Below, piece after piece: positions 5,664-23,534 of a DNA stretch of 48,520 nucleotides (position 1 is its first letter; each line of letters starts with the position of its first letter). Position numbers and translations under genes: made by a program. Where the stretch lies: NCBI GenBank assembly GCA_902805935.1, contig CADCUR010000105.1:1-48520 (forward strand), read 5' to 3'. The notes under the pieces are model-generated. The model was not told the origin of the DNA. It was given only the letters and a program-made list of their open reading frames with translations, and did not search any database. The DNA is from an uncultured Pyrinomonadaceae bacterium. Its GTDB lineage: Bacteria > Acidobacteriota > Blastocatellia > Pyrinomonadales > Pyrinomonadaceae.

Positions 5664-5719
5664 GATAAAGGATGAGGGATGAATAAAACAAGATTTTTAT
5701 TCATCCCTCATCCTTTATC
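5664..5719. repeat. word-repeat palindrome between the kinase and the biotin carrier gene
   Basis: A perfect 25-bp inverted repeat (arms 5664-5688 and 5695-5719, 6-nt loop) is built from the near-repeated words ggataaa, ggatgag, ggatgaa. The right arm ends 10 bases before the ATG at 5730. It could terminate the kinase transcript, or control initiation of the next gene if the transcript continues. Confidence 0.75.
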
Positions 5720-10069: not shown

Positions 10070-10169
10070 TTAGTCCTTCGTCCTTAGTCCTTGGTTAGTT
10101 GAGTGTAACTCTCGAATTCGAGCTAAAGAAAAACAAAGGACAAGGGATAAAGGACGAAGGACGAAGGAC
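10070..10169. repeat. word-repeat inverted element between atpD and atpC
   Basis: The left side (10070-10095) repeats tagtcctt/cgtcctt words and the right side (10133-10169) repeats ggacaag, ggataaa, ggacgaa, ggacgaa. Together they form an imperfect long inverted repeat around a non-repetitive centre. The right side ends one base before the atpC ATG, and its last gaagga word is the only Shine-Dalgarno-like sequence for atpC. Confidence 0.7.
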
Positions 10170-10579: not shown

Positions 10580-10620
10580 AAAAGTCCCAAGTCAAACAAT
10601 TTTTGACTTGGGACTTTTTT
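10580..10620. terminator. bidirectional terminator between atpC and the SemiSWEET-like gene
   Basis: A perfect 17-bp stem (10580-10596 with 10602-10618), a 5-nt loop and terminal T-run on the plus strand (and A-run at the other end) lie between convergent genes. Confidence 0.85.
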
Positions 10621-17460: not shown

Positions 17461-17689
17461 AAATTTCGATAAACAGTCAGCCTGATTTTCAGTTTCTACA
17501 ATAGCCGCAATCAATCGGTTTTATCAAGCAAAAGCCTTTCAAATCCGCCGGTTTTGACTTCTCGCGGGATGCGTGATAATTTCCATAGTTCACCGGTATG
17601 CGCAAAATTTGTGCGGCAAGCTAAGCGCCCCCGGCGGTAGTTCTTTTTTAGCCTAAAATGCTTTGGATGTCGCTTTTCTCAAGAGAAGA

Positions 17690-17862
17690 AGAGATGCGGC
17701 AAAAGGGAAAGCGAGTGAAAATCTCGCACGGTCGCGCCACAGTGAAGGCGATTTTGGATTTTAGATTTTAGATTTTAGATTGGCTGTTTATTGAAAGACC
17801 AATCCAAAATCTAAAATCTAAAATCCAAAATCGAACCAGTCTGGAAACCTGTTCTGAAGTTT
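17690..17862 (+). promoter_or_regulatory. cobalamin riboswitch 1, upstream of btuFCD
   Basis: The core reads agggaaa, then gtgaaaatctcgcacggtcg and cgccacagtgaa (17703-17746), matching the conserved cobalamin riboswitch boxes, followed at 17838-17851 by agtctggaaacctg, matching the 3' box. Between the two boxes a 35-bp word-repeat hairpin (17749-17833) takes the place of the variable peripheral arm. A terminator hairpin follows at 17941-17995, so adenosylcobalamin binding should cause premature termination of the btu transcript. Outer boundaries are approximate. Confidence 0.88.
17749..17833. repeat. word-repeat hairpin embedded in cobalamin riboswitch 1
   Basis: The 35-base arms 17749-17783 and 17799-17833 pair with a single mismatch and consist of ggatttta/gatttta words repeated three to four times. 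The 15-nt loop is 17784-17798. The element lies exactly between the two conserved riboswitch boxes. Confidence 0.9.
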
Positions 17863-17940
17863 TTTAGCCGAAACCGTCTCGCGTCAGGACGTTTGGCTTC
17901 AATGGGTGCAGTTGTTTTTTATCCTTTTTTAGTAAAAACT

Positions 17941-17995
17941 CCTGCCTCTCTTGCCTTTCGTTTTAGCGCGGAAGACGAAAGAGGCGGGTTTTTTT
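17941..17995 (+). terminator. riboswitch-associated intrinsic terminator before btuF
   Basis: The segment 17941-17948 pairs with 17981-17988 and the inner part 17956-17961 pairs with 17975-17980, followed by a run of seven T (17989-17995). This is a classic expression platform downstream of the cobalamin riboswitch. Confidence 0.75.
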
Positions 17996-17997
17996 AT

Positions 17998-18969
17998 TTG
18001 TCGAAATACAGCTTTTCTAAATTAAAATTTATTTTCTTCGCATTTTCGCGTGGTTGTAAAAGTAAGTTCGCTTTGCAAACTCCAGCGGTCGTCTGTTTGC
18101 TGGTTGGTTCGTTTGTGCTGACAAATTGCCGCCGCGAAACGGCTAATCAGTCGCCGCCCGCACCGACGCGCGAAATCGCCGACGATTTGGGTCGCCGCGT
18201 GCGTCTGCCCGAACGAGTGACGAGCGCGGTTTCGCTCGCGCCGAATTTGACGGAAATCACGTTTGCCGTCGGCGCCGGCGAACAGCTGGTCGGCGTGACG
18301 AGCTTTTGCGATTACCCGGAAGAAGCAAGACGAATCCGCCGAATCGGTGATACGCTCGCGCCGAATATCGAAAACATCATCGCGCTGAAGCCGCAAATCG
18401 TTTTGGTTTCGACCGCTTCGCAGATGGAAAATTTCACGAAAACGCTCGACGCGCAAGGCATCGCGTATTTCGTCACTAATCCGAACAGTCTCGACGACAT
18501 TTACAAAACCATTTATCAAATCGGCGAGATTTTCCGCCGCGAAGAAAAGGCGTATCAAGTTGTGGATGAATTAAAAAGGCGCGTCGCCGAAATCGAAGCG
18601 CGCACCGCTGACGCGTCGGACGTAAAAGTTTTCGTGCAGATTGATAAAAATTCGCTCTACACCGTCGGCAGAGATTCTTTTATCACCGATTTAATCCGTC
18701 GCGCGGGCGGCGAATCGCTGACCGAAGACATTGCGACGGCGTATCCGAAAATCAGCAAGGAAACGGCTCTGGCGCTGAATCCCGAACGAATAATTTTGTC
18801 GGAAAGCGATAACAACCGGGAGCCGAACGAAGTTTTCGCCAATTCACCGGCGGTCAAAAACGGCAAGATTTTTTCGGTCGAAGCCGATTTGCTGTCGCGT
18901 CCGGGTCCGCGCGTCGTTGACGGTTTGGAGCGATTAGCGCGCGCGCTGCATCCCGAAAGTTTCGAGTGA
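17998..18969 (+). CDS. btuF: cobalamin ABC transporter substrate-binding lipoprotein
   Basis: The mature part is a helical-backbone (BtuF/FecB-type) periplasmic binding protein: RVTSAVSLAPNLTEITFAVGAGEQLVGVTSFCDYP (quoted by its core SLAPNLTEITFAVG), then ALKPQIVLV and a C-terminal lobe. A hydrophobic segment ends in a lipobox LTNC, so it should be an outer-leaflet-anchored periplasmic lipoprotein. The frame is open back to 17893, but those codons overlap the riboswitch tail and the terminator. The first in-frame start after the T-run is TTG at 17998, with no obvious ribosome binding site; a further TTG at 18073 is possible. The start is therefore uncertain. btuC follows after seven bases. 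Confidence 0.85.
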   Translation: MSKYSFSKLKFIFFAFSRGCKSKFALQTPAVVCLLVGSFVLTNCRRETANQSPPAPTREIADDLGRRVRLPERVTSAVSLAPNLTEITFAVGAGEQLVGVTSFCDYPEEARRIRRIGDTLAPNIENIIALKPQIVLVSTASQMENFTKTLDAQGIAYFVTNPNSLDDIYKTIYQIGEIFRREEKAYQVVDELKRRVAEIEARTADASDVKVFVQIDKNSLYTVGRDSFITDLIRRAGGESLTEDIATAYPKISKETALALNPERIILSESDNNREPNEVFANSPAVKNGKIFSVEADLLSRPGPRVVDGLERLARALHPESFE

Positions 18970-18976
18970 AAGTGCG

Positions 18977-19948
18977 GTGAAAGTCTCAAGCTCCAAGTCT
19001 CAAGTTTCAAGTCTTCGTTTTGGCGTCGGGCTGATTGTTTTATTGATTGCCGTTTTAGCCATTGCCGTTTTTCTCGGCAGCGAAAAACTTGCGTTCCTTG
19101 AATTGACGGACGAGCAAAGCGCGATTCTTTTCGATATTCGGCTGCCGCGCATTCTGCTCGGCGCGACGGTCGGCGTGAGTCTGGCGCTAGCAGGCGCGAG
19201 TCTGCAGTCGCTCCTTAGAAATCCGCTGGCTGAACCGTATCTTTTGGGCGTTTCCAACGGCGCGGCTTTGGGAACGATGCTGGCGTTTATCTTTTTCGCC
19301 GGGGTTGACGCAGCGCGTCCGCTGATGGCTTTTGCGGGCGCAAGTTTGGCGACGCTCGCGGTTTATCAAATGGCGAAGAGCCGCGCGGGAATGAGCGTCG
19401 AACGATTAATTTTGTCGGGCGTGATTGTGACGACTTTTCTTTCCTCGATTCTCGTTTTGCTGACTTCGCTGCTCGACGCGGCGAAGCTCAGAAGTTTTAC
19501 GTTCTGGCTTTTAGGCGATTTGTCGCAGGCGACGAAAAACGGATTTTATTTAACTTTGATTGTCGCCGCTCTTGGCACGATTGTTTTAAGCTCGCAGGCG
19601 CGGGCGTTGAATTTGATGATGATCGGCGAGCGCGACGCTTTCGATTTCGGCGTGGAAGTCGGGCGCACGCGCCTGATTGTTTTCACGACGGCGGCGGGTC
19701 TGGTCGGCGTGTCAGTCGCGGCGAGCGGCTCGGTCGGCTACGTCGGTCTGATTGTGCCGCATCTGGTTCGGCTGGCAATCGGCAGCGACAACCGGCTGGT
19801 CATTCCGTTTTCAGCCGTTGCGGGCGCGATTTTCGTCGTCTTGGCAGACACGGTTGCGCGCGTAGCGATTGCGCCGCGCGAATTGCCGGTCGGCGCGATC
19901 ACGGCGCTCGTCGGCGCGCCGTTGTTTGTTTATTTGTTGAGAAGATGA
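18977..19948 (+). CDS. btuC: cobalamin ABC transporter permease
   Basis: This 323-residue FecCD/BtuC-type permease has about nine to ten hydrophobic helices. It keeps the family stretches RLPRILLGATVGVSLALAGA, NPLAEPYLLGVSNGA and the C-terminal GFVGLIVPH-like segment, here GYVGLIVPHLVRLAIG. Two copies pair with two BtuD ATPases in the inner membrane. The start is a GTG at 18977, seven bases after btuF. Residues 2-13 (KVSSSKSQVSSL) are encoded by repeated aagtctcaag/caagtttcaag words, so the N-terminus may be derived from a repeat. It is part of the riboswitch-1 transcript. Confidence 0.93.
   Translation: MKVSSSKSQVSSLRFGVGLIVLLIAVLAIAVFLGSEKLAFLELTDEQSAILFDIRLPRILLGATVGVSLALAGASLQSLLRNPLAEPYLLGVSNGAALGTMLAFIFFAGVDAARPLMAFAGASLATLAVYQMAKSRAGMSVERLILSGVIVTTFLSSILVLLTSLLDAAKLRSFTFWLLGDLSQATKNGFYLTLIVAALGTIVLSSQARALNLMMIGERDAFDFGVEVGRTRLIVFTTAAGLVGVSVAASGSVGYVGLIVPHLVRLAIGSDNRLVIPFSAVAGAIFVVLADTVARVAIAPRELPVGAITALVGAPLFVYLLRR
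18979..19016. repeat. word-repeat segment at the btuC start
   Basis: The word aagtctcaag and its variants are repeated four times directly after the GTG start codon. No inverted partner is seen. It encodes a Ser/Lys-rich N-terminal tail. Confidence 0.45.
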
Positions 19949-20041
19949 AAAGCGAAAAAGGGTAAAAGCGAAAATGTGAAAAAGCTGGTTGCCGATGAGG
20001 TTAATCTTTTTCATTTTTCTACTTTTCCACTTTTTCACATT
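19948..20041. repeat. word-repeat inverted element between btuC and btuD
   Basis: The left side repeats gcgaaaa/gtgaaaaag words (19948-19984) and the right side (20006-20041) repeats the complementary ctttttca/cttttcca words, giving an imperfect inverted repeat. The right side ends five bases before the btuD ATG, where a ribosome binding site would be expected. Confidence 0.6.
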
Positions 20042-20045
20042 AAAA

Positions 20046-20816
20046 ATGCTCGAAGTTCAAAACATCGCAATCAATTACGGCGTTTGCGCGGTCGTCGCGG
20101 ATGTTTCCTTCGCGCTCGAAGCCAGAAAAATCATCGCGCTGTTAGGAGCGAACGGCGCGGGCAAAACGACTTTGCTCAAATCTCTGAACGGCGCGCTGCC
20201 GGTGAGCGCGGGCGAAATTCGGCTTGACGGAAATTTAATTGAAAATTATTCACGCCGGGAAATCGCGCGTAAAATTACGGTCATCGCGCAGGAAACCGAA
20301 ACGAAATTTCCCGTGTCGGTTGCAGAATTTGTTTTGTCGGGCAGATTTGCCCACGGCGCGGCGTTCGGCTGGGAAACTGAAAACGATTTGCGCGTCGCGC
20401 TCGATTGTCTAGAGCGCTGCGATTTGCAGAATTACGAAAATCGCCGGATGAACCGGCTTTCGGGCGGCGAACGCCAGCGCGTCGTTTTAGCCCGCGCCTT
20501 GGCGACGAAAGCGAAAATTCTGCTGCTCGACGAGCCGACGGCGAATCTCGATCTGGCGCATCAGGCGCTGCTGTTTCGCCTGATAAAAGAGCGCTGTGAA
20601 ACGGATGCGGCTTCCGCGATTGTCATCACGCACGATTTAAATCTCGCGTCGGAATTTGCCGACGAAATCATTTTGCTGAAAAACGGCAGAATCGAGGCGA
20701 AAGGCGAGCCGCGAAAAGTTTTGACGGAAGAGAATTTACAGAAAGTTTTCGATGTAAATGTTTTATTGGACGAAAATCCAATCAGTAAAAAAAGTAGAGT
20801 GACGACGATTTATTAA
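20046..20816 (+). CDS. btuD: cobalamin ABC transporter ATP-binding protein
   Basis: This 256-residue ABC ATPase has Walker A GANGAGKTTL, a Q-loop (AQETETKFP), signature LSGGERQRV, Walker B ILLLDEPTANLD and the switch histidine in ITHDLN. It is the FepC/BtuD type that powers BtuC. The frame is open upstream to 19989 only through the word-repeat element; MLEVQNIAINYG at 20046 is the natural start. There is no clear Shine-Dalgarno sequence apart from the repeat arm. It is the last gene of the riboswitch-1 operon. Confidence 0.94.
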   Translation: MLEVQNIAINYGVCAVVADVSFALEARKIIALLGANGAGKTTLLKSLNGALPVSAGEIRLDGNLIENYSRREIARKITVIAQETETKFPVSVAEFVLSGRFAHGAAFGWETENDLRVALDCLERCDLQNYENRRMNRLSGGERQRVVLARALATKAKILLLDEPTANLDLAHQALLFRLIKERCETDAASAIVITHDLNLASEFADEIILLKNGRIEAKGEPRKVLTEENLQKVFDVNVLLDENPISKKSRVTTIY

Positions 20817-20819
20817 GCG

Positions 20820-20891
20820 AATTACGAATTTCAAATTACGAATTAAAAGAGATTTCCGACATTCATAATTTGTAATTTGAAATTCGTAATT
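20820..20891. repeat. word-repeat hairpin after btuD
   Basis: The 26-base arms 20820-20845 and 20866-20891 pair fully, with one G-U pair, and are made of aattacgaattt/caaattacg words. It begins three bases after the btuD stop and ends eight bases before riboswitch 2, so it may terminate the btuFCD transcript. Confidence 0.8.
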
Positions 20892-20898
20892 GAAGTAG

Positions 20899-21062
20899 AA
20901 CAAACGGCGCAAAGGAACGCGGCGCAAATCCGCGACTGCCCACGCAACCGTAAACCGATTTTGGATTTTAGACTTTGGATTTTGGATTATTTAGCTCTGT
21001 GAATCCAAAATCCAAAACCTAAAATCCAAAATCGAGTGAGTCGGGAACTTTGACCGTTTGTT
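20899..21062 (+). promoter_or_regulatory. cobalamin riboswitch 2, upstream of the BtuB-like receptor gene
   Basis: A closing stem pairs 20899-20907 with 21054-21062. Inside, aaaggaacgcggcgcaaatc followed by cgcgactgcc and cgcaaccgtaaa (20911-20954) match the conserved cobalamin boxes, and gagtcgggaacttt (21039-21052) matches the 3' box. A 33-bp word-repeat hairpin (20956-21034) fills the variable arm. Downstream, cctccgc (21077-21083) can pair with gcgga next to aagg at 21089-21098, so control is probably at translation initiation of the gene at 21105. I see no T-run terminator. Confidence 0.88.
20956..21034. repeat. word-repeat hairpin embedded in cobalamin riboswitch 2
   Basis: The arms 20956-20988 and 21002-21034 (33 bases) pair with two mismatches and consist of ggatttta/ggattttgg words. 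Family and position are the same as in riboswitch 1, but the loop (20989-21001) is unrelated and the word order differs. Confidence 0.9.
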
Positions 21063-21104
21063 TGGGCAAATAACCACCTCCGCGTTGGGCGGAAAAGGAA
21101 AAAT

Positions 21105-23534
21105 ATGAGAATTATAAAAGTTTTAAGTTTAATTTGTTTTTTGACAATCGGCATTTTGGCGCAAACGAGCGCGATAGTTTCCGGGACGCTGTATGAACAA
21201 AAAACAGCCGGAAAAGTTCTTTCAAATTTGGAAGTAAAGTTGATTTCCGCCACCGAGCCGACCAGGTGGTTTTTGACGATAACGGACAGCAATGGAAATT
21301 ATCTTTTTGTGAATGTTCCTGACGGAATTTATTCACTGGTTTATCCCAATTCTCTCGGCGAAGAGGAAAAAAAGATTATCGTAGTCAAAAATGGGGAAAC
21401 CGTTTCCGAAGAAGGACAGCCTATAGTCCGTCCCAGCCTGCTCGGAGAAGTTTCGGTAATCGCCTCAGGCAGTCAACAAGTTGACGCCGAAGTTTCTAAA
21501 ACCGTCAACATCATCGGCGCGCAGGAATTACGCGACCGCGCCGATTTTTCCCTTGTCGAATCGTTGCGCTCGATTCCGGGTTTTCGCATTCAGCAACTCG
21601 GCGGCTTTGGCAGAACGGCGAATATCAAAACGCGCGGTTTGCGAAATCAGGACACGGCGGTTTTGATTGACGGCATACGCTTCCGCGACGCGACGGCGAT
21701 TACCGGCGACGCGACGCCGTTTTTGTCGGATTTTACTTTGACGAGCGTCAATCGAATCGAAGTTCTGCGCGGTTCGGGTTCGTCGCTTTACGGCACGAAT
21801 GCCATTGGCGGCACGATTGATTTTCAAACGCCAAGACCGGAAACCGGATTTCACGGAAACTTGTCGGGCGCGTTCGGCAGTTACGGTTTGGGACGCTTTC
21901 GCGGCAACGTTTCAAACGGCACGGAAGACGGAAAATTCGGTTTTAATTTCGGCGCCTCGCGCACCGTTTATACAAAAGGAATTGACGGCGAGGACGACGC
22001 CAACAATACGAACGTTCAATCGCGCATCGAATACAATCCGTTTGAGCGAACGAATATTTCCGCGAGATTTTTCGTCTCGGACGCTTTCGTTCGCTTGAAC
22101 TCGAATCCGAATTTTATCGGCGCGGCTTTGCCGGTTTCCATGAGAACGATTATTGATGCCGTGCCGCTTTCGCGTGAAGAACTGAGGCGTTACGAAAACG
22201 GAACGCCGCTCGCTCAGTTGAATCGCGGAGGCGCCAATTTTGTTCCTGACGCGAACGACCCGGACAATTCGCAGCGGTCGAGATTCTTTAACGGTCAAGC
22301 AGTTTTAACGCACGTCTTCAGCGACCGTTTAGTTTTTCAAGGCTATTATTCGGGCTTGCGCTCGCAGCGGAAAAACGACAACGGCACGCGCGGCATCGGT
22401 TTTCAATCGGCTTCGGTCGGCTTTTTCGACGGCACGATTCAAAACGTCAACGGGCATTTTAATTGGACGCCGAACCGTTTCAACGAAATCACCGCCGGTT
22501 ACGAGTTTGAACACGAAAAATACGGCAACGACGGATTTACGCCGAGCGGCACAGGGAATTTTACGGCTCGCGCCTTTCAATCGAGCAACACGATTTACGC
22601 GCAGGATTTAATCAAACTGCTCGACAATAAACTACAAATCGCGGGCGGTTTTCGCGTGCAGTTTTTCGATTTGAAAACGCCGAAGTTTAGTTTGAACAAC
22701 GCGCCTTACACAAATCTGACGCTCGAAAATCCGCCGAACGCATATACTTTTGACGGCGCGGCTTCTTATTTCTTTGAGAAGTCCAAAACAAAAATACGCG
22801 CGCACGTCGGCAACGGTTATCGCGTTCCATCGCTTTACGAACGCTTCGGCACATTTTTCAGCAGTTTCGGCACGCCGCGTTTCGTCGCTCTCGGCGCGCC
22901 GGATTTGCAGCCGGAAAAAACCATCGCTTTTGACGGCGGCGTCGAACAGAATCTTTTCGGCAATCGCGCGCGCCTTTCGGCGACGTATTTTTACACGCGC
23001 CTGATTGACACAATTGGTTTCGGGACGCTGCCGCAGCCTGACCCATTCGGACGCAGTAACCAGGCGTCGGGCGGCGGTTATTTGAATACGAAAGGCGGCA
23101 TCGCGCGCGGCGGCGAATTCAGCGGCGACGTTCGCGTAACGGATTCGACCGACGTTTTCGCATCCTACACTTTCACCAACAGCGACCAGCGCACGTCGCA
23201 AGTTCCGACCGTCGGAATCATCGAAACGCTCGGCATACCGAAACATCAATTCACATTGGTTGCGACGCAAAGATTCAAACGCGCGTGGGCGACTTTCGAT
23301 TTTCTCGCCGCAAGCAGTTATCTCGCGCCGATTGGTTTTCCGACTCGCGTTTTTCGCTTTGACGGCAACCGCCGTGCCGATTTGACGGGCGGTTATAACT
23401 TTCCGCTCCGAAGCGAAAGATTCAATTTGCGCGTCTTCGGCACGATTGAAAATCTGCTTGGCGATGATTATTACGAAAACGGCTTTCGCACGTTTGATCG
23501 AAACGGGCGAATCGGTTTGAGTTTCGGTTTTTAA
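21105..23534 (+). CDS. btuB: TonB-dependent outer-membrane receptor, cobalamin-type
   Basis: This 809-residue protein has a signal peptide (about 1-20), a carboxypeptidase-regulatory-like beta-sandwich domain (about 22-105), a plug domain (about 125-240: RDRADFSLVESLRSIPGF, GRTANIKTRGLRNQDTAVLIDG in part, IEVLRGSGSSLYGTNAIGG) and a 22-strand barrel ending in a terminal Phe. Such receptors use TonB energy to import scarce ligands. A vitamin B12 or cobinamide ligand is inferred from the riboswitch upstream and the btuFCD genes next door. A plausible ribosome binding site (aaaagga) precedes the ATG. The N-terminal domain is unlike the Escherichia coli BtuB and typical of Acidobacteriota/Bacteroidota receptors. 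Confidence 0.9.
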   Translation: MRIIKVLSLICFLTIGILAQTSAIVSGTLYEQKTAGKVLSNLEVKLISATEPTRWFLTITDSNGNYLFVNVPDGIYSLVYPNSLGEEEKKIIVVKNGETVSEEGQPIVRPSLLGEVSVIASGSQQVDAEVSKTVNIIGAQELRDRADFSLVESLRSIPGFRIQQLGGFGRTANIKTRGLRNQDTAVLIDGIRFRDATAITGDATPFLSDFTLTSVNRIEVLRGSGSSLYGTNAIGGTIDFQTPRPETGFHGNLSGAFGSYGLGRFRGNVSNGTEDGKFGFNFGASRTVYTKGIDGEDDANNTNVQSRIEYNPFERTNISARFFVSDAFVRLNSNPNFIGAALPVSMRTIIDAVPLSREELRRYENGTPLAQLNRGGANFVPDANDPDNSQRSRFFNGQAVLTHVFSDRLVFQGYYSGLRSQRKNDNGTRGIGFQSASVGFFDGTIQNVNGHFNWTPNRFNEITAGYEFEHEKYGNDGFTPSGTGNFTARAFQSSNTIYAQDLIKLLDNKLQIAGGFRVQFFDLKTPKFSLNNAPYTNLTLENPPNAYTFDGAASYFFEKSKTKIRAHVGNGYRVPSLYERFGTFFSSFGTPRFVALGAPDLQPEKTIAFDGGVEQNLFGNRARLSATYFYTRLIDTIGFGTLPQPDPFGRSNQASGGGYLNTKGGIARGGEFSGDVRVTDSTDVFASYTFTNSDQRTSQVPTVGIIETLGIPKHQFTLVATQRFKRAWATFDFLAASSYLAPIGFPTRVFRFDGNRRADLTGGYNFPLRSERFNLRVFGTIENLLGDDYYENGFRTFDRNGRIGLSFGF

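Follow-up and report, generated by a model that had tools for sequence, protein, structure and literature searches.

Heptamer-word hairpins in the P6 arms of cobalamin riboswitches of the Pyrinomonadaceae

The analysed window is the whole 48,520-nt stretch of DNA from an uncultured Pyrinomonadaceae bacterium of the Acidobacteriota (MAG G000), and it contains an operon in which one cobalamin riboswitch (RS1) precedes btuF and a second (RS2) precedes a btuB-like gene. Each riboswitch holds a long hairpin made of GATTTTRG words, at 17749-17833 and 20956-21034, coordinates that the sequence-only reading of this DNA had given and that an inverted-repeat search bore out (Table 1). This raises the question of how two riboswitches came to carry such hairpins at the same place, and what the hairpins mean for the riboswitches themselves.

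RS1 and RS2 were the only two RF00174 matches in this genome, and both exceeded the curated threshold of 31.5 bits, retaining P4, P5, P6, the J6/3 box and the L13 hairpin. In the RF00174 alignment, both hairpins lie inside the aptamer; a position outside it, which the sequence-only reading had named as a refutation, was not what the covariance model gave. They are inserted at the distal arm of P6, bounded by the L5 side (GCCACAG in RS1, GCAACCG in RS2) and the J6/3 box (AGTCTGGAA in RS1, AGTCGGGAA in RS2). Members of the RF00174 family are known to vary in the P6 arm. RS1 and RS2 differ from this norm in that the arm is filled by dispersed heptamer-word palindromes, which turn over between sister species. 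The CTCGCGTC loop of the P13-type hairpin of RS1 is the presumed partner of L5, and the true start of btuF probably lies further inside the reading frame listed in Table 1.

The order RS1-btuF-btuC-btuD-RS2-btuB is kept across the family Pyrinomonadaceae, so that orthologous sites are available for the comparison of either P6 arm. The two riboswitches belong to different subtypes (CGGTCGCGCCAC in RS1, CTGCCCACGCAAC in RS2), each conserved at its own site family-wide. A whole-block duplication of one riboswitch into the other was rejected on account of the different subtypes and the conserved synteny. The statement of the sequence-only reading that the hairpins are not simple duplicates is borne out, given that the aptamers differ in subtype and the loops are unrelated.

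Table 1 Features of the riboswitch-bearing operon in the window.
Feature	Coordinates	Strand	Basis
RS1, cobalamin riboswitch aptamer, 5' of btuF	17648..17870	+	RF00174, 33.2 bits
RS1 P6 5' strand CAG	17740..17742	+	pairs with CTG 17841-17843
RS1 GATTTTRG word hairpin, 5' arm	17749..17783	+	inverted repeat
RS1 word hairpin loop, 15 nt	17784..17798	+	inverted-repeat search
RS1 word hairpin, 3' arm	17799..17833	+	inverted repeat
RS1 P6 3' strand CTG, begins J6/3 box	17841..17843	+	arm survey and P6 covariation
RS1 P13-type hairpin, conserved CTCGCGTC loop	17875..17891	+	kept in orthologues; stem in hairpin scan
btuF-like substrate-binding protein	17893..18969	+	PF01497 (Peripla_BP_2)
btuC permease	18977..19948	+	PF01032 (FecCD)
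btuD ATPase	19989..20816	+	PF00005 (ABC)
AATTACG-word hairpin (AATTACGAATT words), intergenic, directly 5' of RS2 aptamer	20820..20891	+	inverted repeat
RS2, cobalamin riboswitch aptamer, 5' of btuB-like gene	20888..21072	+	RF00174, 36.6 bits
RS2 P6 5' strand CCG	20948..20950	+	pairs with CGG 21042-21044
RS2 GATTTTRG word hairpin, 5' arm	20956..20988	+	inverted repeat
RS2 word hairpin loop, 13 nt	20989..21001	+	inverted-repeat search
RS2 word hairpin, 3' arm	21002..21034	+	inverted repeat
RS2 P6 3' strand CGG, begins J6/3 box	21042..21044	+	arm survey and P6 covariation
RS2 P13/L13 hairpin (CCGCGTTGGGCGG)	21080..21092	+	L5-L13 covariation in RS2 orthologues
btuB-like TonB-dependent receptor	21105..23534	+	PF07715 (Plug)

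The hairpin of RS1 has arms of 35 nt that are 97% complementary, and that of RS2 has arms of 33 nt that are 94% complementary. Against 500 dinucleotide shuffles per arm, the folding energy of each hairpin had z = -11.9, and the stem scores of 31 (RS1) and 25 (RS2) lay above every shuffle (maxima of 12 and 11, respectively). The possibility that the arm is a terminator was rejected, since no T run follows the 3' arm and the terminator scan lists no site there.

The arms show a period of 7 or 14, with units of ~7 nt that are arranged in tandem and dispersed in the genome. Hairpins of the GATTTTGG...CCAAAATC type were found at six more places in this genome and at none in the reversed-pattern control, genome-wide counts here being those of pattern matches and loci. 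The window also has hairpins of other words (GGATGA, GTCCTT, AATTACG), and the arms are members of a broader class of dispersed palindromes built of words with a period of 7 or 14. Further intergenic word hairpins of the window lie at 5664-5719, 10073-10169 and 10580-10618 (GGATGA, GTCCTT and AAGTCCC words). Words related to those of the hairpin directly 5' of the RS2 aptamer occur at the equivalent place in genomes G011 and G041. In genome G001, GATTTT-type hairpins occupy 18 places, most of them with a conserved loop (GGAAGAAGCGGAGAGCTTTT type), and resemble a homogeneous amplified element.

Riboswitch matches were obtained in 96 of the 119 family genomes, and the P6 arm was read in 94 riboswitches and 19 further loci. 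The arms span loops of 3-4 nt, short stems, and word hairpins of 70-110 nt, and at least 10 genera have arms of the last kind. Words vary by species, and a genome often has different ones in RS1 and in RS2 (GATTTTRG, ATTTATC, AATTACG, GGATGA, CAGTTATC). Arms are absent or short in many genomes, including most of g22 and g23, which makes the pattern in part lineage-specific. Of the 75 operon P6 arms, 25 had a word hairpin by a strict detector, which found none in the RS1 aptamers outside P6, where P2 is variable in length too, yet without a word hairpin. Six matches fell in the 90 nt before P6 of RS2; those of G000, G011 and G041 belong to a separate hairpin directly 5' of the aptamer, and by position the remaining ones seem to be this upstream hairpin too. 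Coding DNA gave two word hairpins in 112.8 kb with this detector, and the gaps between btuF and btuC and between btuC and btuD gave seven in 9.4 kb. If an unfilled loop is taken as ~15 nt, we estimate the per-site density in P6 to be about twenty-fold or more that in these gaps.

Peripheral parts of related riboswitches hold other palindromes as well. REP-like GTAG...CTAC palindromes occur in the peripheral extension of RS2 in two genomes (G043:C40:152935-153188 and G113:C58:3698-3979), and a cobalamin riboswitch from another family of the class (G128, L228:277-576) has an AGGACTG heptamer hairpin in a peripheral arm. A GTDB-wide search for one word family (a GATTTT arm plus the 3' box) returned riboswitch matches in Acidobacteriota records only, the remaining matches being due to chance by inspection.

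Turnover of the arms was followed on a tree of BtuF, BtuC and BtuD from 43 genomes, with word classes assigned by eye. At least 14 changes of word class were required at RS1 and at least 16 at RS2, close to the 17.5 and 18.4 obtained with shuffled labels, which indicates that turnover is near saturation. Presence of a hairpin required 7 changes at RS1 (13.5 in shuffles) and 8 at RS2. In the closest pair, G012 and G013, the RS1 leaders are near-identical apart from a site that is a minimal loop in G012 and a word hairpin of 84 nt in G013; the middle pair of P6 differs on both sides, from T-A to A-T or the reverse. In RS2 of this pair, one arm differs by exactly 7 nt, i.e., one word. At one and the same RS1 site, between conserved flanks, the sisters G000 and G016 differ in their words. 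The sequence-only reading inferred that a repeat had entered, or grown in, the same permissive arm twice; the many genera and word types, the empty and filled sisters and the one-word steps support entry or growth, and show far more than two events.

The words in the arms appear to track the dispersed words of the host genome. All four arms with CATTTATC words fell within the 14 of 119 genomes that have a CATTTATC hairpin (p = 1.3e-4), and the association was weaker for GATTTT arms (p = 0.01, counts tallied by hand), both tests being uncorrected for relatedness and counting the arms themselves among the pattern matches.

It might be argued that gene conversion, and not a second entry, gave this genome one of its two arms as a copy of the other. 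The stem arms of RS1 and RS2 are 87-91% alike, their match extends a few bases into the common 3' box, and the two riboswitches share a word class within G000, G010, G011, G017 and G028. However, the words of RS1 and RS2 differ in G009, G013, G029, G055, G074, G103 and G110, the loops in G000 are unrelated, and the same words at other genomic sites are possible donors. We consider gene conversion an unlikely source of the second arm.

Word hairpins are also found in other RNA classes. The variable P3 arm of the TPP riboswitch (RF00059), a different aptamer that lies outside this window, is filled by the same class of hairpin in at least 12 relatives (G001, G013, G014, G034, G087, G090, G096, G100, G103, G112, G116 and G118), with lengths of ~60-170 nt (loci L195, L215, L217-L226). 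In the genome search, most of these loci scored below threshold or came out truncated; a permissive cmscan raised their score. The 30 best-scoring TPP loci had no word hairpin, the hairpins sitting in weak or truncated matches, and the use of TPP riboswitches as an uncolonised control was dropped for this reason. Long arms reduce detection by covariance models, and such switches, among them the several TPP riboswitches recovered only by permissive search, are thus probably under-annotated. In the P3 arm of the G034 TPP locus (L225, about 190-341), for which the sequence alone was read, the loop of one word hairpin contains a second word hairpin. Among 30 loci of RNase P RNA, one had a clear word hairpin, made of GATTTTGG words (G030, L150:1741-1828), in what our reading of the alignment suggests is the P12 region.

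Alternatively, a Y1 transposase of the REP/RAYT or IS200-like kind, which recognises hairpins and targets their loops, might move the word hairpins as small mobile elements. The nested hairpin of G034, the numerous nearly identical copies in G001, whose loop is conserved, and the GTAG...CTAC palindromes of G043 and G113 in a peripheral arm of the same riboswitch are all consistent with such movement. A Y1_Tnp domain (PF01797) is encoded in 106 of the 119 family genomes, this genome included, and, being nearly ubiquitous in the family, does not discriminate; the hairpin-bearing G014, G027 and G107, all incomplete MAGs, gave no PF01797 match. REP/RAYT families have conserved GTAG ends and are homogeneous, whereas the copies in G000 vary in both ends and loops. 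Word hairpins have neither a common terminal motif nor a visible target duplication, and their lack of fixed ends argues against a classical element, while the heptamer periodicity and the one-word steps indicate slippage. Transposition by a Y1 enzyme is an unlikely source of the hairpins.

The long arm could also be a functional part of the riboswitch, selected for faster folding, aptamer insulation or protein binding. The hairpins are very stable, as their z-scores show, and arms are common in some genera. When the arm was excised in silico, P4 pairing was nearly unchanged, and the P6 pairing probability fell from 0.96 to 0.72 in RS2 but rose slightly from 0.08 to 0.17 in RS1; folding ran without ligand or tertiary contacts, and this is a weak test. 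On the other hand, G012 RS1, many g22 genomes and other relatives have a P6 loop of 3-4 nt with an intact core, neither words nor loops are conserved, and the same hairpins also stand in plain intergenic DNA. The earlier suggestion that the hairpin helps to fold or insulate the aptamer is not supported, given these short-looped relatives and an excision that barely alters P4 and shifts P6 in opposite directions. Selection for a functional arm seems improbable to us.

It is the core that is conserved. The middle pair of P6 covaries in RS1 (T-A/A-T/G-C, 36 orthologues) and in RS2 (T-A/C-G/A-T, 39 orthologues), with one exception in 75, although the regular expression used partly selects for pairing. 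In RS2 orthologues, an A in L5 goes with a T in L13 in 16 of 16 cases, and a G in L5 with a C in 15 of 18 and a T in the other three (Fisher p = 4.5e-7, not corrected for relatedness). Since the core is conserved and many relatives have a loop of only 3-4 nt, the hairpin looks dispensable, which favours a tolerated passenger. The L13 hairpin of RS2 is directly 5' of a Shine-Dalgarno-like AAGGA (21095-21099), and translational control by predicted L5-L13 kissing is therefore likely. Downstream of RS1, a G+C-rich palindrome followed by a T run was noted by eye at about 17941-17996; the terminator scan, which covered loops of up to 8 nt, did not return it.

That an ancestral long P6/P7 arm merely diverged, with no insertion, is very unlikely: the distal stem of P6 normally varies among cobalamin aptamers and arm presence at RS1 has phylogenetic signal, but the arms are built of genome-specific dispersed words, and the pairs G012/G013 and G000/G016 disfavour simple divergence. 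Of the ancestral conserved arm that the sequence-only reading had envisaged for relatives, the frequent presence of a hairpin stands and its conservation does not, as the sequence turns over, being wholly different between sisters, and the hairpin is absent in close relatives.

We consider it probable instead that RNA arms tolerant of extra length recurrently receive dispersed heptamer-word hairpins, most of which are tolerated passengers. The hairpins are members of a large set of dispersed, degenerate 7-nt-word palindromes in the intergenic DNA of the family, and their lodging site in cobalamin riboswitches is the distal end of P6, where extra length is directed away from the ligand core. 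Their arrival may be by insertion of a palindrome, or by templated copying, at DNA hairpin loops, for which the occupation of hairpin ends, including the nested G034 case, speaks. Later growth and shrinkage may proceed by heptamer slippage, as the heptamer length steps suggest, and selection would clear insertions elsewhere in the aptamer. The most likely course is that hairpins enter repeatedly and then grow by slippage, while selection removes them everywhere except in length-tolerant arms. The P6 hairpins would fold independently and stack on P6, leaving B12 sensing essentially unaltered, with RS2 switching through an L5-L13 kissing loop beside the ribosome-binding site and RS1 through a downstream platform. 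More speculatively, the hairpin loops of structured RNAs may be a preferred, and not merely tolerated, landing site for templated insertion of palindromic heptamer arrays, the loops of earlier arrays included; if so, templated insertion would repeatedly rebuild the side arms of riboswitches and ribozymes.

Repeats inside an RNA gene are already known. Vioque (1997, NAR 25:3471, as cited in PMC2858038) is said to have described short tandemly repeated repetitive (STRR) heptamers in cyanobacterial RNase P RNA, a precedent that our case resembles in having heptanucleotide repeats within a structured RNA gene, including RNase P RNA itself (G030, P12). As in STRRs, the units are ~7 nt, tandem and dispersed, with copies elsewhere and a length step of 7 nt. 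Unlike the cyanobacterial repeats, those described here form palindromic word arrays, sit in riboswitches of Acidobacteriota, and involve several RNA classes and many independent events. Rickettsia palindromic elements are dispersed palindromes that also enter genes, and REP or GTAG-tagged palindromes are likewise dispersed (PMC3733652); word hairpins share this dispersal, but have no fixed ends or conserved core sequence. Heptamer direct repeats such as TAACTGA have been reported in Beggiatoaceae, Cyanobacteria and Bacteroidetes (PMC4679880). These are also 7-nt, intergenic and scattered, with similar words (CAGTTATC type) and an unexplained spread; however, they are mostly direct and near start codons, whereas the arrays here are inverted and form hairpins in RNA arms. 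Our literature search found no report of repeats colonising riboswitch arms, an absence that is weak evidence, and what appears new here is the recurrent colonisation of these arms.

The side arms of riboswitches are usually treated as slowly varying structure. In the Pyrinomonadaceae, they resemble docking places where repeat DNA turns over fast, and the empty, filled and one-unit-longer alleles of sister genomes provide a natural experiment on the tolerance of an aptamer to insertion and on the birth of dispersed palindromes in bacteria.
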